Source of the DNA: a virus
Direction: 5' to 3' (one strand)
Length of the DNA stretch: 25,754 bases
IMG/VR virus record: IMGVR_UViG_3300000176_000016
Coordinates: 8,322 to 34,075 of that record
Shown here: piece by piece, positions 2,954-21,183 of the stretch
Numbering within the stretch: position 1 is the first letter of the stretch
How the letters are laid out: each line of letters starts with the position of its first letter
Program-made: the position numbers and the translations under genes
The notes under the pieces: generated by a model
The model's input: only the letters and a program-made list of their open reading frames with translations
Told to the model about the DNA's origin: nothing
Databases searched by the model: none

Positions 2954-4405
2954 ATGTCAGATACAAAAATCTCAGCACTTCCCGCAGCATCAACACCTCT
3001 TACAGGTAGTGAAGTTGTTCCTCTTAATCAAAGTGGTGTTACTAGTAATGTTACTGTTGCTAACTTAACAGCAGGTAGAAATGTTTTCGCAAACAATTTT
3101 ATTCCGTCTGTAACAACTACAACAGCATCATCTACACCAATTAATTTAACAGTTAATTCAACTCAGTATCAAACAGTTAATGGAACAACAACATCTCAGC
3201 AATTTAATTTGCCTGATGCAACAACTTTGTCAGTTGGAGATACGTACTACTTTAATAATAATCTTACAGTTTCTTCTGTTCAAGTTAATGCTCACGATGG
3301 ATCAACTTCTATTTTATCGTTACAAGCTGGTGGTGATGCTCAAGTTATTTTGTTAAACAATAGCACAACCAATGGAACTTGGGACGTACATTCTTTTATT
3401 CCTTCTTCTGCATCTTGGGGTACTGCTACATTAAGTTTTAATAACACAACTTCAATTTCTGGAAGTGTTTCTTGGACAGGAACAAAAATAGGAACTGCTT
3501 ATGGTGGTACAGGACTAAGTGGTTCAACTCCGTTTACAGCAAATGGAATAGTATATGCTTCTAGTACAAGTGCTTTAGCTACAAGTAGTAATTTAACTTG
3601 GGATGGAACTACTTTTTCTGTTGCTGGACCAATTCAAGCATCGGCAGGTCATTATTCATCTATTTATTCTTCAAATTCTGATGGAGGCTATCCATCAAAT
3701 TATTTGAACAGTGCTGGTGGAGATTCTCAAGTTTCAATTGCGGCTAATTGGTTTAGCGGACAAAAAGATTTATCAATAGTAAATAGCAACATTGCTGGTG
3801 GTGGATTTGGTTTTTATCAAATGACCAGTTCATCTGCAAAAACAAGGTTAATTTCTTTTAATACAGGAACATTTCAACCTGGTGTTGATAATACAATGAC
3901 TTTAGGTGCTTCATCTTTTAGATGGACAACTGTATATGCAACAACTGCTTTAATTAATACATCAGATCAGAACGACAAACAACAAATAGCAGATTTAACA
4001 AGTGCTGAACAAACAGTAGCAAAAGCATTAAAAGGTTTGTTCAAAACTTATAAATTAAATTCAGCAGTAGCATTGAAAGGTGATAAAGCTAGAATTCACG
4101 TTGGAATAATGGCTCAAGACGTTTATCAAACATTCGTTAATCAAGGCCTTGATCCAACAAAATATGCTTTGTTTTGTTCAGATACATGGCAAGAATACAA
4201 TGGTCATGCAGTTAGTGTAGATTCAAATAATATGTATGACTTGTTAACAGGATATACATTAAATGGTCAAACAGTAACTTTGAATGATGGAGACGTAGTT
4301 CCAGAGGGAGCAACACAAATTTATACAAAAGTAGCAACAACAACTGTTACAAAATTGGGTATTAGATATGCAGAATTAATGGCTTTTATAATTTCAGCGC
4401 TTTGA
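2954..4405 (+). CDS. Tail fibre with C-terminal S74 intramolecular chaperone
   Basis: 483 residues, with AAAGGA ahead of ATG 2954. The N-terminus, MSDTKISALPAASTPLTGSE, then VPLNQSGVTSNVTV, is a common phage virion-attachment module. A long Thr/Ser/Gly-rich shaft follows (TKIGTAYGGTGLSGSTPF). From about residue 320 the sequence switches to an S74 chaperone pattern: LGASSFRWTTVYA, then TSDQNDKQQI, then GIMAQDV and a helical end. In this family the trimeric chaperone helps the fibre fold and then cuts itself off with a Ser-Lys dyad in an SDxxxK motif. Here these are S337 and K342, so release would follow S337. The fibre would bind the host surface. The family call rests on motifs and order; the receptor is unknown. 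Confidence 0.85.
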   Translation: MSDTKISALPAASTPLTGSEVVPLNQSGVTSNVTVANLTAGRNVFANNFIPSVTTTTASSTPINLTVNSTQYQTVNGTTTSQQFNLPDATTLSVGDTYYFNNNLTVSSVQVNAHDGSTSILSLQAGGDAQVILLNNSTTNGTWDVHSFIPSSASWGTATLSFNNTTSISGSVSWTGTKIGTAYGGTGLSGSTPFTANGIVYASSTSALATSSNLTWDGTTFSVAGPIQASAGHYSSIYSSNSDGGYPSNYLNSAGGDSQVSIAANWFSGQKDLSIVNSNIAGGGFGFYQMTSSSAKTRLISFNTGTFQPGVDNTMTLGASSFRWTTVYATTALINTSDQNDKQQIADLTSAEQTVAKALKGLFKTYKLNSAVALKGDKARIHVGIMAQDVYQTFVNQGLDPTKYALFCSDTWQEYNGHAVSVDSNNMYDLLTGYTLNGQTVTLNDGDVVPEGATQIYTKVATTTVTKLGIRYAELMAFIISAL

Positions 4406-4420
4406 ATATAGGATAAAAAT

Positions 4421-4474
4421 ATGATAATAACCCTACAAACTCAAATCATAACTTTACAAGCTAAAGGAATATAA
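4421..4474 (+). CDS. Possible 17-residue micro-ORF between the fibre genes
   Basis: ATG 4421 to TAA 4472-4474 encodes MIITLQTQIITLQAKGI. Two near-repeats (IITLQTQ and IITLQAK) are visible. AGGAT (4410-4414) gives a fair ribosome-binding site, and the ORF fills nearly the whole gap between the fibre and tailspike genes. Its last codons contain the AAAGGA that serves the tailspike start. It could be a leader peptide, or a remnant of a third fibre gene. Coding status is uncertain. Confidence 0.25.
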   Translation: MIITLQTQIITLQAKGI

Positions 4475-4477
4475 CAA

Positions 4478-6202
4478 ATGTCTTTAACAAAAATATCTTA
4501 TTCAATGATTAACGGTGCTGTTGCCAATGTGTTAGATTTTGGTGCTACTGGTAATGGTACTACTGATGATACTGTTGCAATACAAGCCGCAATAGATGCT
4601 GTTTGTCCAACTATAGGTTCTGTTTTTAGTGCTGGAGCAGTTTACTTCCCAGCAGGAAATTATCTAATTTCATCAACTTTAAATTGTACAAACAGTAGAA
4701 CATCTAATACAAAAAGTAGAGACGGGTTAATGTTGTTTGGTGCTGGGGAAGGGTCTGTTATTGTTGGTCAAACCAATACTGGTTATGCAATGATAGAAAC
4801 AACTGGATCACAATGGCTAACTATTAGAGATTTACATTTATCTGCTGGTTCTACAAACCCATCAACTGTTGGAATTTATCAAGGTGTATCTTCTACATTA
4901 CCTGAAACTCAAAATCAAAAATTTGAAAAATTGATTATAGGAATGGGTGATAATTCAAGTGTAAATAATAGTCAGGGAACTATTGGAATTTGGAATTTTG
5001 GTGCTGAAGAAAATACATATGATACTTGTTATGTAAGTGCAAATTTACCTTATGTTTTTACTGCTTATGCAACATCTCCTAATCTTGGAATTTCATATGC
5101 TCATAGTTACCAAACACTAGCAACAAGTCATAGCTGTGGAGTTAACACTTTAATTGGTGAAAACTTTATGGTTAGTTTAAATTTTGTTAATGCTTGTTTA
5201 GTTACAGAAGATGTAAACAGTCTTAATTTAGAAAATGTTTATATGGCTAATACAGGAGGTACATCAGGTTCTAATACTTATGCTTGGAAAGTATTTGGTA
5301 GTTGTTCAGGAACAAATGGAAATGGAACAATTGAATCTTATGGGACAGCTCTTTACATTATTGGGGCTTTATCTGCGGCAGAATTTAGATTCACATTTGG
5401 TAGCATTTCTAATACAAGCGCACCTAGAATTGCTATAAATCCTGTTAATTCTTCTGGGGTCATTGTAAATAGCAATATTTCTTTCCATGACAATGTTTCT
5501 TCTGCAAGACCTTTGGTTAATTTTATAAGTGGTTATCCAACTACACCAGATCAAGTTGTTGGTTCTTATATAGCTAATACGACATTCAAAACTAATGTTG
5601 ATGCTTCTGGAAACACTTATTTGGCATTACCTGAAAATCTTAAATTTAATGCAAGCACAGGAAATGTTGATATTTTTGGTTTTTATGGTGGCAAATCATA
5701 TAAATATCAAATCCACTATCAAAGAGACAATATTGATATTCCTCCAATAATTTGTTTTCAATCAGGCTCTATTTCTTCAGCAGAAATTTGTAGAGTGCAG
5801 ATGCCAACAGTTTATGGAAGTAATAATGCAACCTCTGTATCAGTAAGAATAAAAGGCAATTTATCAATTAAATCTACTGGTACAAATTCAATGTCCACTA
5901 AATACATTGATGCTCAAATATCAATGTCTAGCAATTATTCAACTGGAACTGTTTATTTTGGTGCTGGTAGCACTACAGGAACAGCAGATCAATTAGTAAC
6001 AACAACACCAGCAAGTGTTAACCCAAGTGGAAACAATATAACTGCTGGAGCAATTACTGCATCTGTTACTTCGAATGTTGTTAGTTTGGTAATGACACCA
6101 ACTTTAGCAGGTACAAATCAAGAAACTGTGCAATTCAATGGAACTGCTGAAATGATATGGGCTAATAATATTGCTAGAGCACCATCTTTATTGATTGGAT
6201 AA
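4478..6202 (+). CDS. Tailspike with pectate-lyase-like beta-helix
   Basis: 574 residues, with AAAGGA ahead of ATG 4478. After a short N-terminal segment, residues about 16-35 read NVLDFGATGNGTTDDTVAIQ, followed by AAIDAV and VYFPAGNYLIS. This is the signature opening of the Pectate_lyase_3 right-handed beta-helix used by phage tailspikes. The following residues (LMLFGAG, WLTIRDLHLS, GIWNFGAEEN) continue the stacked-coil pattern to about residue 260-380. The C-terminal part is a separate beta-rich region. Such spikes bind and often cut host polysaccharide (LPS or capsule). The active-site acids sit at variable positions in the helix and cannot be named here. Thr codons are mostly ACA, unlike the capsid region, which suggests the fibre block was exchanged. 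Confidence 0.82.
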   Translation: MSLTKISYSMINGAVANVLDFGATGNGTTDDTVAIQAAIDAVCPTIGSVFSAGAVYFPAGNYLISSTLNCTNSRTSNTKSRDGLMLFGAGEGSVIVGQTNTGYAMIETTGSQWLTIRDLHLSAGSTNPSTVGIYQGVSSTLPETQNQKFEKLIIGMGDNSSVNNSQGTIGIWNFGAEENTYDTCYVSANLPYVFTAYATSPNLGISYAHSYQTLATSHSCGVNTLIGENFMVSLNFVNACLVTEDVNSLNLENVYMANTGGTSGSNTYAWKVFGSCSGTNGNGTIESYGTALYIIGALSAAEFRFTFGSISNTSAPRIAINPVNSSGVIVNSNISFHDNVSSARPLVNFISGYPTTPDQVVGSYIANTTFKTNVDASGNTYLALPENLKFNASTGNVDIFGFYGGKSYKYQIHYQRDNIDIPPIICFQSGSISSAEICRVQMPTVYGSNNATSVSVRIKGNLSIKSTGTNSMSTKYIDAQISMSSNYSTGTVYFGAGSTTGTADQLVTTTPASVNPSGNNITAGAITASVTSNVVSLVMTPTLAGTNQETVQFNGTAEMIWANNIARAPSLLIG

Positions 6203-7360: not shown

Positions 7361-8137
7361 ATGAGTTCTACTTACAGTATTAATAGCAGCCAAATTATTT
7401 CCCTAGCACTAGGTAGGTTAGGTGTGCTTGAGATTGGTGATACTCCTGATACCAATACATACAACAATGCTTTAATGTCTCTTAACTTACTCATTAAACA
7501 AATGAGTGTAGATGGATTAAAGCTATGGAAAATAACTGAACTTATTATTCCTACTACATCTGGTCAAACATCTTATGTATTAGGTGGGTCTACATCTACT
7601 TTGATGTATGACTCTTTAAATCCTACTGTAGCTATTACTGACAAACCACTTAAAATTATCCAAGGGTTTTATCGTAATATTCAAGTAACTCCTAACATAG
7701 ATACACCTGTACTTATTGTTTCTAAACAAGAGTACAACATGTTAGGTTCTAAGTTTTCTACTGGTACAGCTAACACTTTGTTTTATGATCCTAGAGAAAA
7801 CAATGGTATCTTATATGTGTACTTAACACCAGATCTTAACTCTCAAACAAACATTCAGTTACATGTTGTAGCTCAAATGCCTTTGAATGATATTACTCTA
7901 GGTACTGGTACTTCTACTGATACTCCTGATTTTCCTATTGAATGGCAAAACACTTTAGTATGGGGACTAGCTGATGAGTTGGCTATGCAGTATGGTGTTC
8001 CAGTTAACTCTAGACAAGAGATAGCAGCAAGAGCACTGGTGTATAAAGAAAAGCTCTCTGATTGGGATGTAGAGGCTTCTAGCACGTTCTTTATGCCTGA
8101 CTTTAGATCTACCAACCCAAACTCTTACGGACGTTAA
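7361..8137 (+). CDS. Head-tail connector / packaged-DNA stabilisation protein (P22 gp4-like)
   Basis: 258 residues. The N-terminus has SINSSQIISLALGRLGVLEIGD, then NNALMSLNLLIKQMSVDGLKLWK, then a beta segment IIPTTSGQTSYVLGG. The order of helix, NxAxxxLNxLIKxxxxDGLxLW and TxxGxxSYxLG is typical of the P22 gp4 family (tail accessory factor), functionally close to T7 gp11. The C-terminal part has PIEWQNTLVWGLADELAMQYGVP, also conserved in these proteins. In P22 twelve copies sit under the portal ring and close the head after packaging. The gp10-like hub gene follows by one base, as expected. The family is confidently placed by motif and order. Confidence 0.83.
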   Translation: MSSTYSINSSQIISLALGRLGVLEIGDTPDTNTYNNALMSLNLLIKQMSVDGLKLWKITELIIPTTSGQTSYVLGGSTSTLMYDSLNPTVAITDKPLKIIQGFYRNIQVTPNIDTPVLIVSKQEYNMLGSKFSTGTANTLFYDPRENNGILYVYLTPDLNSQTNIQLHVVAQMPLNDITLGTGTSTDTPDFPIEWQNTLVWGLADELAMQYGVPVNSRQEIAARALVYKEKLSDWDVEASSTFFMPDFRSTNPNSYGR

Positions 8138-8138
8138 T

Positions 8139-9986
8139 ATGACAACCGAAAGAATAGCACTTACACAACCAATAGATAGTCGTACAGGATCTTTTGCATC
8201 TGATGCGTATTGTGCTAACGTTTTCTTTGATACTAGTAATGGTAAAAGAGATTGGGTTAAAAGACCTGGGCTAACTAAAGCTACTACTATTGCTAGTGGA
8301 ACAGCACAAGGTTTAACTGCTTACAACGGTAATTTAGTATCTGTTATTAATAACACTGTTTACCAAATTAATCCCAGTAGCTACGCTGTTACTACTTTAG
8401 GATCAACGTCTGCATCTACAAGCCAAAGTTATTTTGTAAACACATTTCTTAATAACTATTTGTTTTTTCATAATAAAGTTAATGGTTATTTACTAAACCA
8501 ATCAGGAACTTTAAGTACTATTAATAACACAACTGTTGTAGCTATTAGCATTGACAACCCTGGTTTAAACTATAGTACAGGTATTACTCTTAGCTTTTCT
8601 TCTGGTAGTGTTGCTGCTACTGCTACAGTTGTATCGGGAAATATAACTACTGTAACCATTACCAATCCTGGCAGTGGATACTCTAGTGCTCCTACTTGTA
8701 CAATTAATCTACCTGCTACACAAACTCCTACTGGTTCTGGTACTACTGGCTTTTACACTGTGTCTGTATCTAGTGCTAGTGGTATATACACAGGTATGTT
8801 TGCTAGTGGAACAGGCATAGCACCCAATGCTGTGGTTACTAGCATCAATGGAACAGCAATAACTTTAAATATTCCAAACACAGCTACTGTATCAGGTACT
8901 ATTACCTTTCAAGATTTAGGTTCTGGAGCAGTGTTAACTCCTGCTCTTAACTCATTCCCTGCGGGTCCTTTTGTATCTGGTGCTGTGTTTTTAGACCAAT
9001 ACGTATTTATTGGTACAACTAACAACCGTATATACAACTGCAACGTTGGTGACCCAACTCAATGGAATGCTCTTAGTTTTTTAAGCTTTGAACAAACAGG
9101 AGACACATTAGTTAGTATTGCTAAACATTTAAACTACCTTATAGCTTACGGTTCTTCTACTACCCAATTCTTTTATGATGTTGGTAATGCTGTTGGTTCA
9201 CCTCTTACTGTAGCTCCTAGCTACACTATGGAAATAGGTTGTGCTAATGGAGACAGTCTTGTTGCTACTAGTAACACAGTTGTGTGGGTAGCTACTACAA
9301 AGACTTATGGTAAGTCTGTGTACCTTATGGATGGAGTATCTCCTATTAAAGTATCTACTAGCCATATAGATAGGCACTTAGAAGCCGATTCATTAACACA
9401 CGTATCTGCTTATGTGTATAAGATAAATGGTCATACCTTTTATATACTAACGCTATATAACACCAATAAAACTTTAGTCTATGACTTAGATGAAAAGATG
9501 TGGTACACCTGGACTTCTTACAACGGTTCATCTGAAAACTATTTTGTACCTACATTTTATGCAGATGCTAATAATACTCCCTACTGTTTAGACAGCACTA
9601 GTGGTAATTTGTACTACTTTAATACTAATGTTTACCAAGATAATGGTCAACCTATCTATTGTAGGTCTGTTACAGACATTAGAGACAACGGTACTACCAA
9701 ACGTAAATTCTACGGCAGACTAGAAATCATTGGAGACAAAGTAGCTGGTAACATGTACATCAGTCATTCTGGTAATGACTACGCTAGTTACTCTACTCCT
9801 AGGGTTGTTAACCTTAATGCTCCTAGAGCACAGGTATACCTTAGTGGAGCTGACAGACGTAGGTCTTGGCAGTTTTTATGCTATGACAATGTTCCTCTTA
9901 GGTTAGATGCTGCTGAGATTGATTTTAGACTTGGTGAAATGGACCAAGAACAATCTGTTGGTAGCGGTACTCAATACAAGAGGTAG
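8139..9986 (+). CDS. Tail hub / packaged-DNA stabilisation protein (P22 gp10-like) with an inserted beta module
   Basis: 615 residues, starting one base after the gp4-like gene. The N-terminus and the stretch from about residue 270 match the P22 gp10 pattern: RDWVKRPGL near residue 37, then YVFIGTTNNRIYNCNVGDP, DTLVSIAKHLNYLIAYGS and KSVYLMDGVSPIKVST. The end is polar, with YLSGADRRRSWQFLCYDN. Hexameric gp10 forms the tail hub and holds the spikes and needle. Between about residues 134 and 258 lies material not needed for the hub fold. It comprises two NPGxxY type repeats (DNPGLNYSTG, NPGSGYSSAP) and a segment of the form GMFASGTGIAPNAVVTSING. This looks like a surface-exposed insertion. The same GSGYxxAP motif occurs in the virion protein encoded at 614. 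Confidence 0.82.
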   Translation: MTTERIALTQPIDSRTGSFASDAYCANVFFDTSNGKRDWVKRPGLTKATTIASGTAQGLTAYNGNLVSVINNTVYQINPSSYAVTTLGSTSASTSQSYFVNTFLNNYLFFHNKVNGYLLNQSGTLSTINNTTVVAISIDNPGLNYSTGITLSFSSGSVAATATVVSGNITTVTITNPGSGYSSAPTCTINLPATQTPTGSGTTGFYTVSVSSASGIYTGMFASGTGIAPNAVVTSINGTAITLNIPNTATVSGTITFQDLGSGAVLTPALNSFPAGPFVSGAVFLDQYVFIGTTNNRIYNCNVGDPTQWNALSFLSFEQTGDTLVSIAKHLNYLIAYGSSTTQFFYDVGNAVGSPLTVAPSYTMEIGCANGDSLVATSNTVVWVATTKTYGKSVYLMDGVSPIKVSTSHIDRHLEADSLTHVSAYVYKINGHTFYILTLYNTNKTLVYDLDEKMWYTWTSYNGSSENYFVPTFYADANNTPYCLDSTSGNLYYFNTNVYQDNGQPIYCRSVTDIRDNGTTKRKFYGRLEIIGDKVAGNMYISHSGNDYASYSTPRVVNLNAPRAQVYLSGADRRRSWQFLCYDNVPLRLDAAEIDFRLGEMDQEQSVGSGTQYKR

Positions 9987-9988
9987 TT

Positions 9989-10885
9989 ATGAATCAAATA
10001 GTAGAAGCCATTAATTCTGTAGCTAATAAAGAAGGGTTTAACCTAAGTACTTCAGAAAGCAAATTAGCTTTAGCTAAAGTATTGTTAAAAGAAGAACAAA
10101 TTGAAAATTCCATTGTTCATAGATTTGGTGGAGGGCTGTATATTAGGGAAGCACATTATCCCAAAAATACTCTCATAGTAGGTCAAGAACATGTCTCTGA
10201 GCATATGAATGTTTTGCTTAAGGGTAGCATTAACGTTATAGATGGAAACGGTTCTATACAGACTTTAACAGCTCCACATATGTTTGTAGCTAAAGCAGGT
10301 AGCAAAGTAGGCTTTACATTAGAAGATGTTGTGTGGCAAAATATCTATGTTACTAATAGTACTGATGTAGAATACTTAGAGTCAATATTATTTATATCCC
10401 CAGACATTCTTAAAGAACATCAACAAGAAAAGTTAAGTAAAGAGTATTCTTTATACCAAGAAGATCGAGAAGACTTTTTATTGATGGTTCAAGAATCTGG
10501 TTGGACTTTAGAAGACATAGAGTTAGCATCTAAATATAGAAAAGATTGCATTCCTTTTCCAGATGGTAGTTATAGCATTTGTTCTGGTGATTCACCAATA
10601 CAAGGTAAAGGAATGTTTTCTACTGCTTTAATAAAACAAGATAGTGTTATTGCTCCTATGAGGCTTGGAGGGTTAAGAACTCCTGCTGGTTATCTTGTTA
10701 ATCATTCTAAGCGTCCTAATGCAAAAGCTATTTTAACGGGTTTTAATGACATGTTCTTAGTAACATTGAGGGATATAGGTGGTATGGTAGGTGGTGATTT
10801 AGGTGAAGAAATAACTGTTGACTATAGACAAGTTATGAAATTAAACAATATTTGGAAAGGAGACAAAACATGTCTGCTGGAATAA
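9989..10885 (+). CDS. Cupin-SET fusion: putative protein-lysine methyltransferase in the tail module
   Basis: 298 residues, starting two bases after the hub gene. Residues about 45-125 resemble a cupin or jelly roll. They include YIREAHYPKNTLIVGQEH, with His68 and His72 in the metal-binding stretch, MNVLLKGSINV, APHMFVAKAGSKVGFTLED and VWQNIYVT. Residues about 195-285 are a SET domain: GKGMF at 206-210 (AdoMet-binding GxG), NHSKRPNA at 238-245, and GEEITVDY at 272-279 with the Tyr279 expected at the active site. SET proteins usually methylate lysines using AdoMet. Cupin proteins of this type often lie beside P22-like tail genes. Post-SET cysteines are absent. The 3' end overlaps the next gene by 16 bases. 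SET activity and targets (virion or host proteins) are inferred; the domain calls are fairly strong. Confidence 0.78.
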   Translation: MNQIVEAINSVANKEGFNLSTSESKLALAKVLLKEEQIENSIVHRFGGGLYIREAHYPKNTLIVGQEHVSEHMNVLLKGSINVIDGNGSIQTLTAPHMFVAKAGSKVGFTLEDVVWQNIYVTNSTDVEYLESILFISPDILKEHQQEKLSKEYSLYQEDREDFLLMVQESGWTLEDIELASKYRKDCIPFPDGSYSICSGDSPIQGKGMFSTALIKQDSVIAPMRLGGLRTPAGYLVNHSKRPNAKAILTGFNDMFLVTLRDIGGMVGGDLGEEITVDYRQVMKLNNIWKGDKTCLLE

Positions 10886-13180: not shown

Positions 13181-16100
13181 ATGGCTGATTTTGGACAAGG
13201 TGATGAGGTTGTATCTAAACCTAAGTCTTCTTGGGGACATGATGATGAAGTTGTATCTACTAAACAAGCTTCTGTAGAAACAAAACAGTCTATTGGTGGA
13301 CCTGTTAGTAACTTAGCTCGTACTACTACAGAAAGTGTTTTACCAGGTTTAGGTGGTCTTGCAGGAGCTGCTGCTGGTGCTAGTGCTGTAACTCCATTAG
13401 CTGAAGGTGTTTTAGCTGTTGGTGGTCCAGCAGGACCTATTATTGCTGGTGCTTTAGAATTAGGTGGTGCAGGATTAGGTGCTTATTTAGGAGCAGAAGG
13501 AGTTGCTTCTGTTCAAGATAAGTTGCATCAATTAATAGCTCCAGAAGACTTTGAACAAAGAAAACTACAAAGAAAACAAAACCCAGCTACTACTTTTGTA
13601 GGTAATATAGCTGGAGGTGTTGTTGGGTTATCTCCTAAAGTTGCTGTAGATACAACTGCTAAAGTTATTAACACTGCTATGAAAGCTAGAGCTGCATCTG
13701 CTGCTGCTCAAGCTGGTGTATCTGCTGGTACTCAATTAGCTACTACGGGTACTGTTGATCCATTAGAAATGGGTGTGGCTGCTGTTACTGGTGCAGTGTT
13801 ACCAGGAACAAATCGTTTAGGAACACCATTTGCTGGTGTAGGTAAAGCTATTGGTGAAACTGTTGCTAATGTATTTAAACCTGGTAAACCAACAACTAAA
13901 ACAAAACCTTTTGATTTACCAGATCGCCCTTTAGAAACAGCTACTCCAGAAGAAAAAACTGAATACATTAAAAAATTAGAAGCTATTAAAACTGAACGTG
14001 ATTCTAAAGCTCCTTTAGTTGAAGCTGCTATTAGAAATAAAGAGACTGGTGAAATAGAGCGTATGGGTCCTAAACATGACCAAGCTCGTAAAGATGATAT
14101 TAGAGAAAACCCTAATTACGAAGAAGGGTTTATAGATGAGCGTGGTAACTTTCACGAGCGTACTGCTGCTGTAGATCAAGCTAAACGTTCTGGTCAAATA
14201 CCAGAAGATCATGTACTTGAGAATCCTCCTGGTGAAACACCTGGGTTACATTCAGGTGATCTACGTAAAGCAGGTGACAAACGTTTTGAAATTACTGACG
14301 AACAACCTGTTGGCGAACCTAAACCTCCTGTTGAAGAAGGTCCTAAGACTCGTGAAGAACATAAAAAAGCTATTGATGATTTAGAGTACGATATTTTTGT
14401 AACACACGAAATAGATTTGCAAGAAGCTAAAAAAATGGGCGATACCGATGGTGTTGCTGAAATTGAATCTAGAATAAAAAGGGATCAAGAAAAGTTAGAA
14501 CAACTTAGTAAAGACATTCCACCAGTTCAATTTGATAATCCACTTAAACCTACTTGGGAAGAGTTGCACGATCATCTTTGGAATGCTAATAAAGTAGGAG
14601 AAGCTTTTGATAAAATTCTTAATGCAGACATTGGTTCTAAAGGACAACAATTTTTAATTAAAGCTCTTAATCAATCTCAATTTATTCGTGATGCTAAATT
14701 AGAATTTTCTAAAGAATTTCTTAAATATATAGATAAAGATGGGTTTGAAAAACAAGATGCTGTTGGTTTATATACTGGAAATTCTATACATAAAGTAGAG
14801 CTTGGGAAAGAAGGTAGTTTAACAACACTGCTGCATGAAGCTATTCATGCTGGTACTCAAAAACTTCTTACTCAAGGTAATCATCCTGCTGCTATTAAAC
14901 TCCAAAAATTATTTGAAGAGTTTGAAGAAAAATATAACGCTGACTATAAAAAAGAAATGGAGTTATATAAAGAAAATAAACCAAATGCTACACCAGCTGA
15001 ACTTAAAGATTATGAACAATTTTATCATGAACAAAACAAACCTTATGGTTTAACAGATGTTGATGAATTTATTGCTGAAGCTTTTACTAACAAAGATTTT
15101 CAAAAATTACTTGGATCAATTAAGTCTAAAGAACCAAACACTGTTATTGGTGACATGTGGGAAAGTTTTAAAGATACTGTTCGTAAAGGCTTAAATATTC
15201 CAGAATCACAACGTACAGCATTTGATGATGCAATTGAACATGGTACTAAACTTATTGAAGAATCTAAAAGTTATTCAGCTTTAAATGTGTTTTCTGTAAG
15301 AACTTCTCCCTCTGTTGTTAAAGCTGCTGAAAAAATAGACCCTCGTTCTATTCCTAATGAAAAAGAATTTTATGAACATGCGACAGATATTTATGAACGT
15401 TATGGCGAAGAAGTAGCCATCAAGTTTTTTGAAGACTATAACAAAAATCTTAAAGAACAATCTATTCCTGTTCCTAATAACATGGAAGAGTTGGATGATG
15501 CTTTTCATAAACTAAATACATTTCAAACTAAAGATAGATCAGAAAATGTATCTTGGTATAAAGAAAATACAGAAAATGGTGTAACAGCAGAAGATCGAAC
15601 CAAATGGTTTGATATGCGTGAGCGTGGTGAAGAGTTACCACCAGAAGCTAAAGCTGTATTAGACGTTATTGACCAAGAAAATTTAGCATTAGTTCGTAAG
15701 ATCAAGGCTATGGGTGGTGATGTTGGTGATGAGTTTGTTAAAGGTCAATCTCGTATAAGAATTTTTGGTGATGTTCAAAGCAATTGGCTTAACACTATTA
15801 AAGAGTTTTTTAGTAATGGTGGAGCACTAGGAGATAAAATTGCTGACCAAGCTAACGCTGCTATGGAACGTAAAGTGTTTGGGCTAGAGACTTGGACTAC
15901 TGATCCCAAAGTTGAGGGTGCTGCTGTTAAAAAAGAAACTGGTCGTGTTATTGAGATGCACAGACATCTAGAAGATACAACCTATTCATACCAAGACGGT
16001 TCTGGTAAATGGCAAACTGTTCCTGTTAAAAAAGGAACATCAATCTGGGAATGGAAAGACGGTAAAAGAAAACAAATTGGACATTCAGAAAAGCTGGACT

Positions 16101-17722
16101 TAAAACGTGGTGATACTTTAGAACTTAAAGTTCCTGGTGAAGCACCTGTAGGTGCTGATGGAACTAAAGTCACACGAGTAATTAAGTCTCAAGCTGTTAT
16201 CTCTGATGGTAAGGTGATGGATATTGAGCGTCATTCTCCTTATCGTTACTTACATGATGCTGAAGCATCTGCTCGTTTAGCTAATATTGGTTTACGTAAA
16301 CAAGCTAGAGAGTTAGAGTTTATTAACAACCTTAAACAATCTAAACTATTTGAAGAAGTTGGATTTAGTCCTGACAAACCACTTAAAAATTTACCACAAG
16401 GTTGGAAAGTTCCTAATAGCATTGATCGTATACCAGAGTTACGTGGATGGCATTTTGATCCTAAAACAGCAGCAATTATAGAAGATTTTGCTAAAGTTTG
16501 GGATAACACTATGTGGACAAAGTTAAGCAATGCTCTTGTTAAAAACATGATGCTTAACCCAGTTCCTCATATGTTCAATGAGGTTATGCACTTGTGGAAT
16601 GCTAGAGGTTTTACTGGTTGGGTAGACCCACGTAGGTTGGGTACTTTTGCAGATACTGCTAGACAAGCTGCTAGAGATGTAGGTAGTCAAACAAAATTCT
16701 ATAGAGACATCATGCGTGAAGGTGGTTCTATACTTGGAGCTGATCCCAGAAATAAAGAGTTCTTTGAACCTATATTTGAAAATGCTAAAAAAGAAATGTT
16801 TGGTGACAAAAATACGCAAAGAAATCTTGGTCAACTAGCAAAACGTTTAGGTACTACTGTAGGTGATTTGTACAACGGAATATCTAAAGCATCTAACAAA
16901 GCCATGTGGTTTACCAGAGATGTAATGTACGTACAATATGTTCGTGAGATTATGGCTGAATCACAAAAACGTGGTCAACCTATGGATCTTAAATCTGCTA
17001 TTAAAGAAGCAGAAAAACACATGCCTAATTATCGTTTACCTTCAGAAGTATTAGGTAAACGTGGTCTATCTCAAGTGCTTAGAAATCCTAACATATCTAT
17101 GTTCTCTCGTTACCACTATGGTATGGTCAAATCTTTGGTTAATACCATAAAAGATGTTGATCCTCGTAATCTAAGTTCTCCAGAAGGTCGTAAACATTTC
17201 CGTCAGGGTGTTGACTCTATGTTGGCTATTGGTGTTGCTATGGGTGTTTTGTATCCATTGATGGACTATATTGCTGAGAGTATGTTTGGCGAAGGAGCAG
17301 AGCAACGTAGAGCAGGTCCTTTCCACTTGTTACAAGCAGGTGTGAATGTGGCTACTAATAAAAAAGATGCTAGTGCTTTAATATGGCCTGTCTTTACTTT
17401 TAATCCTGTATTGTTGTCTTTAGGTCAGTTAGCTTTTAACAAAAACATATTTACTGGTAAAAAAGTATATCATCCAGATGATCCTTTGGGTGATGTTCTT
17501 GGTGATATAGGGCAGTATATTGCTAAACAAGTTCCTATGGGTGCTCCAATGATCTCTGCTGTTACTGATGAAGATGCAGAAACTCAATTTGCTGCTAAAC
17601 AACTAGACATTAAAGTTAAAACAGAAGCAGAAAAACAACGTGAAAGTAAAGCCATAGAACGTGAAAGAAGAGCAGCTAAAAGTCGTGTTACTAAACGGGA
17701 TAAAAGAACGTATATACCATGA
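13181..17722 (+). CDS. Giant ejection protein with HExxH metallopeptidase motif, 1513 aa
   Basis: It starts two bases after the previous stop. Residues about 50-120 are Gly/Ala-rich and membrane-like (GLGGLAGAAAGASAV, AVGGPAGPIIAGALELGGAG). Residues 120-500 are charged and probably unfolded or helical. At 548-560 comes TTLLHEAIHAGTQ, with HEAIH at 552-556. About 70 residues later, DVDEFIAEAFTNKDFQKLL has Glu629 and Glu633 as candidate third zinc ligands, the pattern of a zincin metallopeptidase. Residues about 1345-1365 are hydrophobic (LAIGVAMGVLYPLMDYIAE), and the end is strongly basic. The size and position fit T7 gp16-like or P22 gp16/gp20-like proteins, injected with the genome. The peptidase might open the envelope, act on a host protein or process virion proteins. 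The last four bases overlap the ATP-grasp gene. Confidence 0.78.
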   Translation: MADFGQGDEVVSKPKSSWGHDDEVVSTKQASVETKQSIGGPVSNLARTTTESVLPGLGGLAGAAAGASAVTPLAEGVLAVGGPAGPIIAGALELGGAGLGAYLGAEGVASVQDKLHQLIAPEDFEQRKLQRKQNPATTFVGNIAGGVVGLSPKVAVDTTAKVINTAMKARAASAAAQAGVSAGTQLATTGTVDPLEMGVAAVTGAVLPGTNRLGTPFAGVGKAIGETVANVFKPGKPTTKTKPFDLPDRPLETATPEEKTEYIKKLEAIKTERDSKAPLVEAAIRNKETGEIERMGPKHDQARKDDIRENPNYEEGFIDERGNFHERTAAVDQAKRSGQIPEDHVLENPPGETPGLHSGDLRKAGDKRFEITDEQPVGEPKPPVEEGPKTREEHKKAIDDLEYDIFVTHEIDLQEAKKMGDTDGVAEIESRIKRDQEKLEQLSKDIPPVQFDNPLKPTWEELHDHLWNANKVGEAFDKILNADIGSKGQQFLIKALNQSQFIRDAKLEFSKEFLKYIDKDGFEKQDAVGLYTGNSIHKVELGKEGSLTTLLHEAIHAGTQKLLTQGNHPAAIKLQKLFEEFEEKYNADYKKEMELYKENKPNATPAELKDYEQFYHEQNKPYGLTDVDEFIAEAFTNKDFQKLLGSIKSKEPNTVIGDMWESFKDTVRKGLNIPESQRTAFDDAIEHGTKLIEESKSYSALNVFSVRTSPSVVKAAEKIDPRSIPNEKEFYEHATDIYERYGEEVAIKFFEDYNKNLKEQSIPVPNNMEELDDAFHKLNTFQTKDRSENVSWYKENTENGVTAEDRTKWFDMRERGEELPPEAKAVLDVIDQENLALVRKIKAMGGDVGDEFVKGQSRIRIFGDVQSNWLNTIKEFFSNGGALGDKIADQANAAMERKVFGLETWTTDPKVEGAAVKKETGRVIEMHRHLEDTTYSYQDGSGKWQTVPVKKGTSIWEWKDGKRKQIGHSEKLDLKRGDTLELKVPGEAPVGADGTKVTRVIKSQAVISDGKVMDIERHSPYRYLHDAEASARLANIGLRKQARELEFINNLKQSKLFEEVGFSPDKPLKNLPQGWKVPNSIDRIPELRGWHFDPKTAAIIEDFAKVWDNTMWTKLSNALVKNMMLNPVPHMFNEVMHLWNARGFTGWVDPRRLGTFADTARQAARDVGSQTKFYRDIMREGGSILGADPRNKEFFEPIFENAKKEMFGDKNTQRNLGQLAKRLGTTVGDLYNGISKASNKAMWFTRDVMYVQYVREIMAESQKRGQPMDLKSAIKEAEKHMPNYRLPSEVLGKRGLSQVLRNPNISMFSRYHYGMVKSLVNTIKDVDPRNLSSPEGRKHFRQGVDSMLAIGVAMGVLYPLMDYIAESMFGEGAEQRRAGPFHLLQAGVNVATNKKDASALIWPVFTFNPVLLSLGQLAFNKNIFTGKKVYHPDDPLGDVLGDIGQYIAKQVPMGAPMISAVTDEDAETQFAAKQLDIKVKTEAEKQRESKAIERERRAAKSRVTKRDKRTYIP

Positions 17723-19050
17723 ACCTACTAATAATAGATCAATTTGATTGTGGATTTGCTATGGACTTGGCTATCAAGTCTGCTGCTTACGGACACGATG
17801 TACGTGTGTATATGCGTAATAATTTTGATGGTACTCGCTGTGAAAACGGTGATGGTATGGATTGCTTTAAGAAAGTACCTGATTGGGAACCCAGTATGGA
17901 CTGGGCTGATCTCATATTTGTTACTGATAACAGCAGGTACATACAACGTATAGAGTCTTATAGACGTAAAGGGTATCCTATCTATGGCTGCAACGTAGAA
18001 GGTGCTAGATGGGAACAAGATAGAGAGTATGGATCAGCTATATTTGAAAGAGCTGGTATTGCTACTATTCCTATGCAAAAGTTTAAGAAGTATGATGATG
18101 CTATAGCACTTGTACTTGCTAATAAAAACAAACGCTATGTATCCAAACCTGTTGGTGATGGAGATAAAGCTCTTAGCTATTGCTCTAAAGACTGGCGTGA
18201 TATGGTTTTTATGCTTAACAAATGGAAGAAGAGCAATGCTTATGATGGTGAGTTTGTTCTACAAGAGTTCCATAAAGGTTGTGAGATGGCTGTTGGTGGA
18301 TGGTTTGGTTTAGGTGGATTCTCTAAACACATTCTTGAGAACTGGGAGTTTAAGAAGCTAATGTCTGGGGATCATGGTCCTGCTACTGGTGAGCAAGGTA
18401 CTGTGATGAGGTATACCCAAAAGAGTTTGTTAGCTGAAAAAGTCTTATTACCTTTAGAAGGTTTTTTACATGGTATAGGTTACAGCGGTTATATAGACGT
18501 TAACTGTATCATTGATGATAAGGGTAATCCCTGGCCCCTAGAGTTTACTACTCGTCCTGGATGGCCTCTATTCCAGATCCAACAAGCTCTACATACAGGC
18601 TGCCCTATTGGTTGGATGCTTGACTCTTTAAATGGTAAAGACACTCTTAAAGTTAAAGATAGCATTGCTTGTGGTATTGTGGTATCTCAACCTGACTACC
18701 CATACAACAACGTTAAAAAGAAAGAGAATACAGGATACCCTATCTTTGATTTAACAATGGAAGATGCTACTAGTAACATTCACCTATCAGAAGTTAAGAT
18801 GGGTTTTGGACCAGGTAAAGATGGTAGAAACACAGAGCCTTGTATGGTTACGGCTGGTAGTTATGTGATGACTGTCTCTGGTACAGGTAAAACTGTTTAT
18901 GATGCCAAATGTGATGCTTATGATACCTTTAAGAAGAAAATATGTATGATTAACTCTCCTATGGTCAGAGATGATATAGGAGAAAAATTAGAAGAAATGC
19001 TTCCACTACTTCAAAAGAATGGCTATTGTAAAGACATTAAATACAAGTAA
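17719..19050 (+). CDS. ATP-grasp ligase related to PurD (phosphoribosylamine-glycine ligase-like)
   Basis: 443 residues, overlapping the upstream stop by four bases (ATGA). The N-terminal part is a Rossmann-like pre-ATP-grasp domain (MNLLIIDQFDCGFAMDLAIK, HDVRVYMR). It lacks the GGREHA loop with which true PurD binds phosphoribosylamine. The ATP-grasp core shows Lys143 in YVSKP, Glu183 in VLQEF, Glu189 in CEMAV, Asp260/Asn262 in GYIDVN and Glu275 in WPLEFTTRPG. The usual PurD metal-binding EFNxR is here EFTTR. A C-terminal segment, CMVTAGSYVMTVSGTGKT then AKCDAY, resembles the PurD C-domain. Such enzymes join a carboxylate to an amine using ATP. The substrate is probably not that of PurD. Its place between ejection and fibre genes is unusual and suggests action on a virion component or a small molecule. 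Confidence 0.8.
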   Translation: MNLLIIDQFDCGFAMDLAIKSAAYGHDVRVYMRNNFDGTRCENGDGMDCFKKVPDWEPSMDWADLIFVTDNSRYIQRIESYRRKGYPIYGCNVEGARWEQDREYGSAIFERAGIATIPMQKFKKYDDAIALVLANKNKRYVSKPVGDGDKALSYCSKDWRDMVFMLNKWKKSNAYDGEFVLQEFHKGCEMAVGGWFGLGGFSKHILENWEFKKLMSGDHGPATGEQGTVMRYTQKSLLAEKVLLPLEGFLHGIGYSGYIDVNCIIDDKGNPWPLEFTTRPGWPLFQIQQALHTGCPIGWMLDSLNGKDTLKVKDSIACGIVVSQPDYPYNNVKKKENTGYPIFDLTMEDATSNIHLSEVKMGFGPGKDGRNTEPCMVTAGSYVMTVSGTGKTVYDAKCDAYDTFKKKICMINSPMVRDDIGEKLEEMLPLLQKNGYCKDIKYK

Positions 19051-19055
19051 TTACT

Positions 19056-19619
19056 ATGGCTACTAATCCTAATTCAAACATTCCGATTCCACAGAATCCT
19101 ATAGGGGAGAATTACCCCTGGAGAGATTGGTTTCAAAAGCTTAGTAATAAAGTATATGGTTCTTTAGCTAGTCAAAACTCTAATGGAGTTGCTATATCAG
19201 GTGGTACTATAGACAATACCGCTATAGGTTCTACTACTCCATCAACAGGTAACTTTACAAGTTTAAAGTTAGGTTCTCCTTTAAAAATAACATATGGTGG
19301 AACCAATGGTTTTGCTGTACCTACTGCTGGTGCTGTAGCTTATGGCAATGGTGGTGCTTACGCTTTTACTGCTGTAGGTACTACAGGTCAAGTGCTTACT
19401 TCTAACGCAGGAAGTACACCCACTTGGACTTCTGTTGTTAATAAAATTGCTGCTGGTACTAATATATCTATAACTCCAATAGGAGGCACTGGTACTGTAA
19501 CAATTAACACTACTGGACTTTCTGTAACCATAACAACAGCTAAATTAACTCCAACGGGTACTAATGGAAGTATGACTTTTACGAGTGGAATATTAACAGC
19601 TCAAACAGCAGCTACATAA
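19056..19619 (+). CDS. Short tail fibre or fibre adaptor, 187 aa
   Basis: It starts five bases after the previous stop. The N-terminus has NPIGENYPWRDWFQKLSNKV, then YGSLASQNS, a block that I recognise at the start of many short phage fibres and that probably attaches to the virion. Then comes the standard fibre motif AISGGTIDNTAIGSTTPSTG followed by NFTSLKLG, and a Thr/Gly-rich beta shaft with TYGGTNG and GTTGQVLTSNAGSTPTW. No C-terminal chaperone or enzyme domain is present. It may be an adaptor to which a longer fibre attaches. Position next to the lysis genes is common for late fibre genes. Structural role is fairly sure; the receptor is unknown. Confidence 0.72.
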   Translation: MATNPNSNIPIPQNPIGENYPWRDWFQKLSNKVYGSLASQNSNGVAISGGTIDNTAIGSTTPSTGNFTSLKLGSPLKITYGGTNGFAVPTAGAVAYGNGGAYAFTAVGTTGQVLTSNAGSTPTWTSVVNKIAAGTNISITPIGGTGTVTINTTGLSVTITTAKLTPTGTNGSMTFTSGILTAQTAAT

Positions 19620-20273: not shown

Positions 20274-20767
20274 ATTGGTTATCACAAATTGCTCCTACTA
20301 TTGCCACTGCTATTGCAGGACCCTTTGGTGGTCTAGCATACGAAGCAATTTCTAAAGTAATAGGTGTATCTCAAGATGATGCTAAGAAAATGCTTGATGA
20401 TGGTAAACTTACTGCTGATCAAATAGCATCCGTACAACAAGCTGAGATAGCTCTAAAAGCTAAAGCACAAGAGCTTAACCTAGACTTTGAACAACTAGCT
20501 GTACAAGATAGAAGCTCTGCAAGAACAATGCAAATTGCTACTCAATCTTGGATACCTCCTGTTCTTGCCATAGGTATTACAGGTGGATTTTTTGGTATAC
20601 TTTTTGGATTAATGTACGGTCAAGTACAACATACGCCTCAAATTGATATTATGCTAGGTTCACTTGGTACTGCTTGGACAGGCGTGGTTGCTTTCTATTT
20701 TGGTTCTTCAGCAGGTAGTCAGAAAAAAGACGAACTTTTACATCAATCAACACCAGTTTCAAAATGA
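20270..20767 (+). CDS. 3TM holin
   Basis: 165 residues, overlapping the upstream stop by ATGA. The N-terminus has ATAIAGPFGGLAYEAISKVI, then GVSQDDAKKMLDDGKLTADQ. The middle has DRSSARTM (80-87). Two membrane helices follow, at about residues 95-117 (IPPVLAIGITGGFFGILFGL) and 125-147 (IDIMLGSLGTAWTGVVAFYF), with the polar end SSAGSQKK. The arrangement of the DRxSAR motif, W-x-PP and the last two helices is typical of the GTA/3TM phage holin family. Holins open the inner membrane at the end of infection so that endolysin reaches the wall. The endolysin gene directly follows with another ATGA overlap. Family call is strong. Confidence 0.85.
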   Translation: MNWLSQIAPTIATAIAGPFGGLAYEAISKVIGVSQDDAKKMLDDGKLTADQIASVQQAEIALKAKAQELNLDFEQLAVQDRSSARTMQIATQSWIPPVLAIGITGGFFGILFGLMYGQVQHTPQIDIMLGSLGTAWTGVVAFYFGSSAGSQKKDELLHQSTPVSK

Positions 20768-21183
20768 TTAATTCAAGGGATTTAAATGAACTACTTCCAG
20801 AAGTTAAAACAAGAGTTGAAAAGTTTATTCAATCTTGTAAAGATAAAGGCATTGATATACTTGTTACTAGTACGTATAGAGACATGGAAAGCCAAGCAGC
20901 TCTCTACGCTCAAGGAAGGACCACAGAAGGAAAAATTGTCACAAATGCTGGACCTGGTGATTCTTATCACAATTGGCGTTGTGCTGTGGATGTTGTTCCG
21001 TTGATAAACGGAAAACCTGATTGGGATGGGTCACACCCAGTTTGGGAACAAATAGGTTTAATTGGGTCTGAATGTGGGTTAGAGTGGGCTGGTAAATGGA
21101 TTCACTTTAAAGAATTAGCTCACTTTCAATATACCAATGGTTTAACTATAGCCCAATTAAAAAGTGGTGCTACCATAGTTTAA
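20764..21183 (+). CDS. Endolysin, M15 L-alanyl-D-glutamate-type endopeptidase
   Basis: 139 residues, overlapping the holin by ATGA. The sequence has STYRDMESQAALYAQGR, then GPGDSYHNWRCAVDVVP with His69 and Asp76 as zinc ligands, and KWIHFKELAHFQY with Glu117 and His120. These are the conserved positions of M15/VanY-type peptidases used as endolysins by phages such as T5 and A500-like phages. The enzyme cuts peptide bonds in the peptidoglycan stem. It has no signal peptide, so it depends on the holin for release. Its stop codon overlaps the stop of the minus-strand gene at 21180. The family is strongly supported; the exact bond cut is by analogy. Confidence 0.88.
   Translation: MINSRDLNELLPEVKTRVEKFIQSCKDKGIDILVTSTYRDMESQAALYAQGRTTEGKIVTNAGPGDSYHNWRCAVDVVPLINGKPDWDGSHPVWEQIGLIGSECGLEWAGKWIHFKELAHFQYTNGLTIAQLKSGATIV

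Follow-up and report, generated by a model that had tools for sequence, protein, structure and literature searches.

The window analysed here is the whole stretch of 25,754 nucleotides (bases 8322-34075 within a 45,537-base virus record), and it carries on its plus strand an open reading frame of 443 amino acids (17719..19050) that encodes a full-length PurD-fold ATP-grasp protein, called here the ligase. The gene begins within a 4-nt ATGA start/stop overlap (17719..17722, +) with the preceding gene (13181..17722, +), which encodes a protein of 1513 amino acids. These coordinates and the overlap are exactly those given in an earlier, sequence-only reading of this DNA, which described the ligase gene as coupled to a giant ejection protein. 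The overlap stands, while a role of the 1513-aa protein in ejection is inferred only from where its gene lies, 3' of the tail genes: the protein belongs to no named family, and matches only PHROGs (protein-family models) of unknown function.

Upstream of the ligase, the genes of this late operon match head-closure and tail models. They include a gene (9989..10885, +) whose product has an N-terminal part resembling a tail fibre (matching PHROGs for short tail fibre and fibre adhesin) fused to a SET domain that bears the motifs NHSxxPN and GEEITVDY. Immediately 3' of the ligase lies a late gene (19056..19619, +) that directly abuts or overlaps the giant gene in relatives without the ligase, and an endolysin gene is found further downstream (20764-21183). 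Outside the window, the record holds TerL, portal, GroES-like, DnaB-like, primase-like, and MoxR/VWA-like genes (judged by eye). The MoxR-like ATPase and VWA (CobS/CobT-like) pair (L131 4449-7368; G000 34000-45537) is in the early region, and is conserved in 7 of 11 related genomes. No purine genes were seen across the 45.5-kb record, which speaks against a nucleotide-metabolism operon and agrees with the original description of the gene as lying among virion genes and not coupled to nucleotide genes. Promoter and terminator scans gave more matches in shuffled than in real sequence.

The ligase is related to PurD, as first proposed, at a level far beyond chance. It matches the PurD model TIGR00877 with 55.3 bits (E 4.7e-15) and the PurD structure 2yw2 with an E-value of 3e-11, and when a profile of 36 family members was searched against the PDB, all 11 sequences matched were PurD (best 2yw2, 1.6e-31), with PurK, PurT, biotin carboxylase, and PylC not among the matches. 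The score nevertheless falls far short of the curated TIGR00877 cut-off of 288 bits, as do those of the Patescibacterial and plasmid members tested (84-98 bits). The PurD-like C-domain noticed in the sequence-only reading is also confirmed: residues 317-423 (18667..18987, +) match GARS_C (E 4.9e-6; both GARS_C and GARS_A lie under their gathering scores), with the PurD GGR changed to GSY (Tyr382), and a domain of this type was found in 36/36 relatives scanned. PHROGs offered no convincing family for the ligase (best E 0.0084). The AlphaFold model (pLDDT 90.2, pTM 0.89, with a weak loop at 213-224) matches PurD chains with Z 29-33 over 375-393 residues, followed by PurK at 23.5, with other ATP-grasps (PurK, PurT, biotin carboxylase, PylC) at or below that value. 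Because of this gap we assign the architecture to PurD, with the N, A, B, and C domains present in the predicted model and the GARS_C matches. A viral structure library returned generic ATP-grasps only (best TMq 0.46 among the matches listed).

To compare residues, 44 family members (29 phage and 15 cellular) were aligned with 18 PurD sequences from several lineages. The ATP-site residues common to the family and PurD are E99, K143, G187, E189, K212, G220, T223, G224, G227, E275, and R279, and E210 is also kept in the family. Among these, K143, which opens the ATP-site stretch KPVGDGDKALSY (residues 143-154; 18145..18180, +), E189, E275, and R279 are invariant in the family, so that the ATP-binding lysine, the acidic Mg ligands, and the phosphate-binding arginine expected of an ATP-grasp enzyme are present by conservation, and remain invariant down to ~37% identity. 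The catalytic core had been listed before as Lys143, Glu183, Glu189, and Glu275; three of the four are invariant, but position 183 is E or K across the phage family, and the invariant residue is instead Gln182, found where PurD has a Glu (E187 to Q).

By contrast, the residues particular to PurD (G7, G9, R11, E12, P32-G33-N34, E187, G229, N288, D293, E295, and R382) are replaced in the family, including the PurD-invariant positions 7-14 (GGREHA) and 32-34 (PGN) across all 44 members. In the window protein, an altered N-terminal loop (residues 7-16; 17737..17766, +) takes the place of GGGGREHA, TGEQGT (residues 223-228; 18385..18402, +) that of TGGMGA, and EFTTRPGWP (residues 275-283; 18541..18567, +) that of EFNxRFGDP. 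The missing GGREHA and the EFN to EFT change, both remarked on in the sequence-only reading, recur in every relative compared, 29 from phages and 15 from cells (N288 to T in 44/44), and neither the EFNxR Mg-ligand motif nor GDPE is kept. The D293 position (282 in the ligase) is Trp in all phage members and mostly Tyr in the cellular ones. The family has in turn fixed Q182, E225, N262, and T277 (95% or more, in phage and cell members), as well as E210. In PurD, N288 of EFN is a Mg ligand; N262, at the PurD Gly273 position, could stand in for the ligand lost with the N288 to T change. By what is known of PurD, PurK, and PurT, the phosphoribosyl group would be held by the glycine loop at the N-terminus together with the C-domain arginine. 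The alignment shows that the phage proteins lost the basic residues R11, H13, K109, and R382, and gained the acids D7, E207, and E225. Cellular members keep E225 and E210, but D7 is specific to the phage proteins, most cellular members having Ser there.

In a tree with PurK, PurT, and AccC as outgroups, the phage proteins form a clade (100/100) on a stem of 4.15 changes per site that groups with PurD (99/94), the exact attachment being poorly supported (35/32). A second tree joins phage, Patescibacterial, and plasmid sequences in a single clade (100/100; stem 2.4) away from PurD, inside which the cellular members are supported at 100/97 and phage monophyly is weak (67/44); the tree program gave a long-branch warning. 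All three groups share the signature E-F-T-x-R, T-G-E-x-G, and Q182. The phage proteins are therefore one branch of a wider, uncharacterised PurD-related family, new here, that we call the EFT family. The phylogeny called for in the sequence-only reading thus sets the ligase apart from PurD, on a long branch with full support. The outcome that would have marked an ordinary metabolic gene, a tight position within PurD together with the full set of substrate residues, was looked for and not found.

The cellular side of the family emerged when a profile was run against 380 genomes from a single phylum, to which a MAG labelled Saccharibacteria belongs (i.e. Patescibacteria, bacteria with tiny genomes). 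Full-length relatives were present in 12 further genomes (E 1e-70 to 1e-85), together with one phage-like copy; with an earlier profile of phage members, canonical PurD had reached ~2e-30 at best. Two class-level searches matched 22/353 and 32/381 genomes, some of them counted before. The phylum-wide search overturned the idea of a phage-only family, which a first whole-collection genome scan, with its two phage-like contigs, had suggested. A close bacterial PurD origin was also rejected: among the best loci of 274 Gammaproteobacteria there were only canonical PurD and one misbinned phage contig. Two phage contigs with late phage genes and the ligase (L128 and L129) are filed in bacterial MAGs (Methylococcaceae and Saccharibacteria), and the second has a separate small SET gene (4096-4518). 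One Patescibacterial copy, 820 kb into a contig of 1.25 Mb, is chromosomal, and plasmid-borne members were found in Halarchaeum (haloarchaeal), Roseomonas, and Sphingomonas (alphaproteobacterial). No virion genes were found near the homologues on bacterial and archaeal replicons, nor were purine genes seen near the ligase in phage or cellular members.

Some cellular loci show further features. One Patescibacterial genome has two tandem ligase copies followed by a methyltransferase-like gene (L358 8202-10946). In a phage-like Patescibacterial locus (L367), the gene for a very lysine-rich protein of 82 amino acids (9575-9823, -) precedes by ~80 bp a divergent ligase copy of 526 amino acids (7915-9495, -); the small protein is a possible substrate. 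An EamA-like transporter adjoins the ligase in several Patescibacterial loci (five in the neighbour count; e.g. L366 7939-9030 and L478 4406-5386), and may carry the product or substrate of the enzyme.

Viral relatives number 73 loci in one protein scan and at least 553 in a profile scan, and the only annotated phage record that carries the ligase is MW202796.1 (54% identity), where the gene is unannotated. The ligase is held in a syntenic late operon in 138 loci, in 88 of which the same large-gene cluster precedes it, and the 4-nt overlap with the preceding gene recurs in 93/125 loci, including cases where the preceding proteins belong to unrelated clusters. Six related records (two of ~44-45 kb) have no ligase copy and share a head-closure gene that is ~61-65% identical; in the four of them that were read, the giant gene runs up to, or 1 to ~11 nt into, the counterpart of the window gene that comes after the ligase. 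Since related podoviruses lack it, the ligase is an accessory late gene. It is under strong purifying selection (dN/dS 0.06-0.16 against eight relatives). Across 11 genomes no phage gene co-varies with it, and fusions to the upstream protein were sought and none seen in the family (lengths 196-456 aa, including fragments).

Among 61 Patescibacterial loci, the commonest close neighbour of the ligase outside generic mobile and housekeeping genes is a small SET-domain protein (7 loci). The 40 ligase-bearing Patescibacterial genomes have 18 SET genes in total, with 27 genomes having none, and one of 14 control genomes has one. Nine of the 18 are within 6 kb of the ligase (two each in G1085 and G1099, one each in G532, G1133, G676, G1150, and G896), against ~0.2 expected by chance at 1.3% each (P ~5e-13, or 2e-9 assuming 40 SET genes); 6 of the 40 genomes had been chosen with the neighbour already known. 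In G676 the ligase, whose sequence is broken by a stretch of N, is followed through an ATGA by SET, and then by agmatinase (over the cut-off) and a deoxyhypusine-synthase family gene. The neighbours in G532 are a carboxynorspermidine-synthase-like gene, an ornithine/DAP-decarboxylase-family gene, a second saccharopine-dehydrogenase-like gene, SET, MetK, and AhcY, and the ligase of G585 has an AdoMet decarboxylase two genes away. Polyamine neighbours are limited to 3-4 of the 61 loci, and several loci have housekeeping neighbours only. On the Sphingomonas plasmid, the ligase copy is convergent with a SET gene. In phage loci, SET is found in 12/78 ligase-positive and 0/8 ligase-negative cases, a difference that is not significant, with too few cases to test. 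The SET protein of the window, in the same late operon, is a possible functional partner of the ligase.

In our view, held with about as much confidence as doubt, the protein is a catalytically competent carboxylate-amine ligase of the EFT family that would not use phosphoribosylamine and whose amine acceptor is probably cationic. By analogy with PurD, a carboxylate would be activated with ATP as an acyl phosphate and then passed to an amine. Phosphoribosylamine would not be accepted as this amine, because the residues expected to hold the phosphosugar are gone. ATP binding and ligase chemistry, judged by conservation, and rejection of phosphoribosylamine, judged by residue loss, are the best supported of these predicted steps. 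The acceptor is more probably a cationic amine, such as a polyamine or the side chain of lysine. Two observations suggest this: the exchange of basic for acidic residues in the pocket, an argument drawn from the alignment and not from a bound structure, and the SET and polyamine neighbours in cells. Being expressed late, the enzyme would modify its amine during virion assembly or before lysis. The new substrate proposed in the sequence-only reading is thus supported, as residues, score, and placement are all non-PurD; of the candidates named there, a nucleobase is disfavoured, as the cellular neighbours point to amine or lysine chemistry instead.

The position of the gene invites a different reading, in which the ligase modifies a virion protein, e.g. 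by adding an amino acid to the tail, or to a lysine, of the co-translated giant protein upstream. It lies nearly always directly 3' of the last ejection-block gene, and the 4-nt overlap persists where no homology between the upstream proteins can be recognised. The position would also follow from insertion at a gene-block end, however, and the C-termini of the upstream proteins have no visible common motif. The family also occurs on replicons without nearby virion genes, related phages keep the same virion gene set without the ligase, and no phage partner co-varies with it, so that the virion-protein link suggested at first is not borne out, and we consider it unlikely. Similarly doubtful is a late action on the host envelope or another host small molecule (in superinfection exclusion or as a lysis aid), or against a defence system. 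An accessory late gene close to lysis genes would suit such a role, and the cell wall has been proposed as the target of amidoligase and glutamine amidotransferase genes in phages (PMC10580990), but no such partners were recognised by eye in the ORFs outside the window in the 45.5-kb record, which is possibly a fragment, and in relatives L062 and L068 the ligase ends the late operon with no lysis gene just downstream.

A divergent but true GAR synthetase, i.e. an ordinary purine auxiliary metabolic gene, seems very improbable. In both sequence and fold, no characterised family is nearer than PurD; viral surveys include purD or GART genes, with purD reported as an auxiliary metabolic gene (PMC11360552, PMC11097641, PMC12043954); and Patescibacterial genomes with the EFT family show no separate canonical PurD among the matches listed. 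The 55 bits against a cut-off of 288, the family-wide loss of GGREHA, PGN, EFN, GDPE, and GGR, the separate clade, and the lack of purine genes seen nearby all speak against it. Least credible is a degenerate, inactive PurD fold with a structural or regulatory role, which could explain the altered catalytic positions (N288 to T, E187 to Q), but not the invariant ATP-site lysine, acids, and arginine, the identical substitutions fixed in cells and phages, or the low dN/dS.

Returning to the preferred carboxylate-amine ligase, a more speculative extension, which we regard as improbable at present, is that PurD-derived ligases and SET methyltransferases form an unrecognised amine-modifying module, acylating polyamines or lysine-rich proteins, common to Patescibacteria, some plasmids, and podoviruses. 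In podoviruses, such a module would tune the cationic partner of packaged DNA or a virion protein. Independently of this, an uncharacterised enzyme family is now seen in both phages and cells and has, in SET, a genomic partner with statistical support, so that its substrate can be tested. PurD models are the only ones that recognise the widespread phage family, and a lenient search would therefore label its members purD; they are nevertheless very probably not GAR synthetases.

Compared with PurD/GAR synthetase (TIGR00877, PF01071 and PF02843; PDB 2yw2, 1gso, and 2qk4), the ligase shares the whole-chain fold including the C-domain, the ATP-site lysine and acids, the R-x-D-I-G motif, and the TG-x-x-G loop, whereas it lacks GGREHA, PGN, and EFN, has GWPxF for GDPE and GxY for the C-domain GGR, is only 20-24% identical, and is encoded in a late phage operon with no purine genes. 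With PurK, PurT, biotin carboxylase, and PylC it has the ATP-grasp core in common. Iyer et al. are said to have described, in 2009, phage ATP-grasp, amidoligase, and glutamine amidotransferase systems of the phiEco32 type, which are likewise phage-encoded ATP-grasp ligases, but the window protein differs from them in its PurD architecture. Further counterparts are the RefSeq proteins named 'Phosphoribosylglycinamide synthetase C domain-containing protein' (e.g. WP_123078225, Halarchaeum), on which we found no literature study. Their position in the tree (100/100) and their E-F-T-x-R, T-G-E-x-G, and Q182 place them in the same family, but these cellular members are encoded on plasmids or Patescibacterial chromosomes, sometimes with SET neighbours, and outside virion operons.
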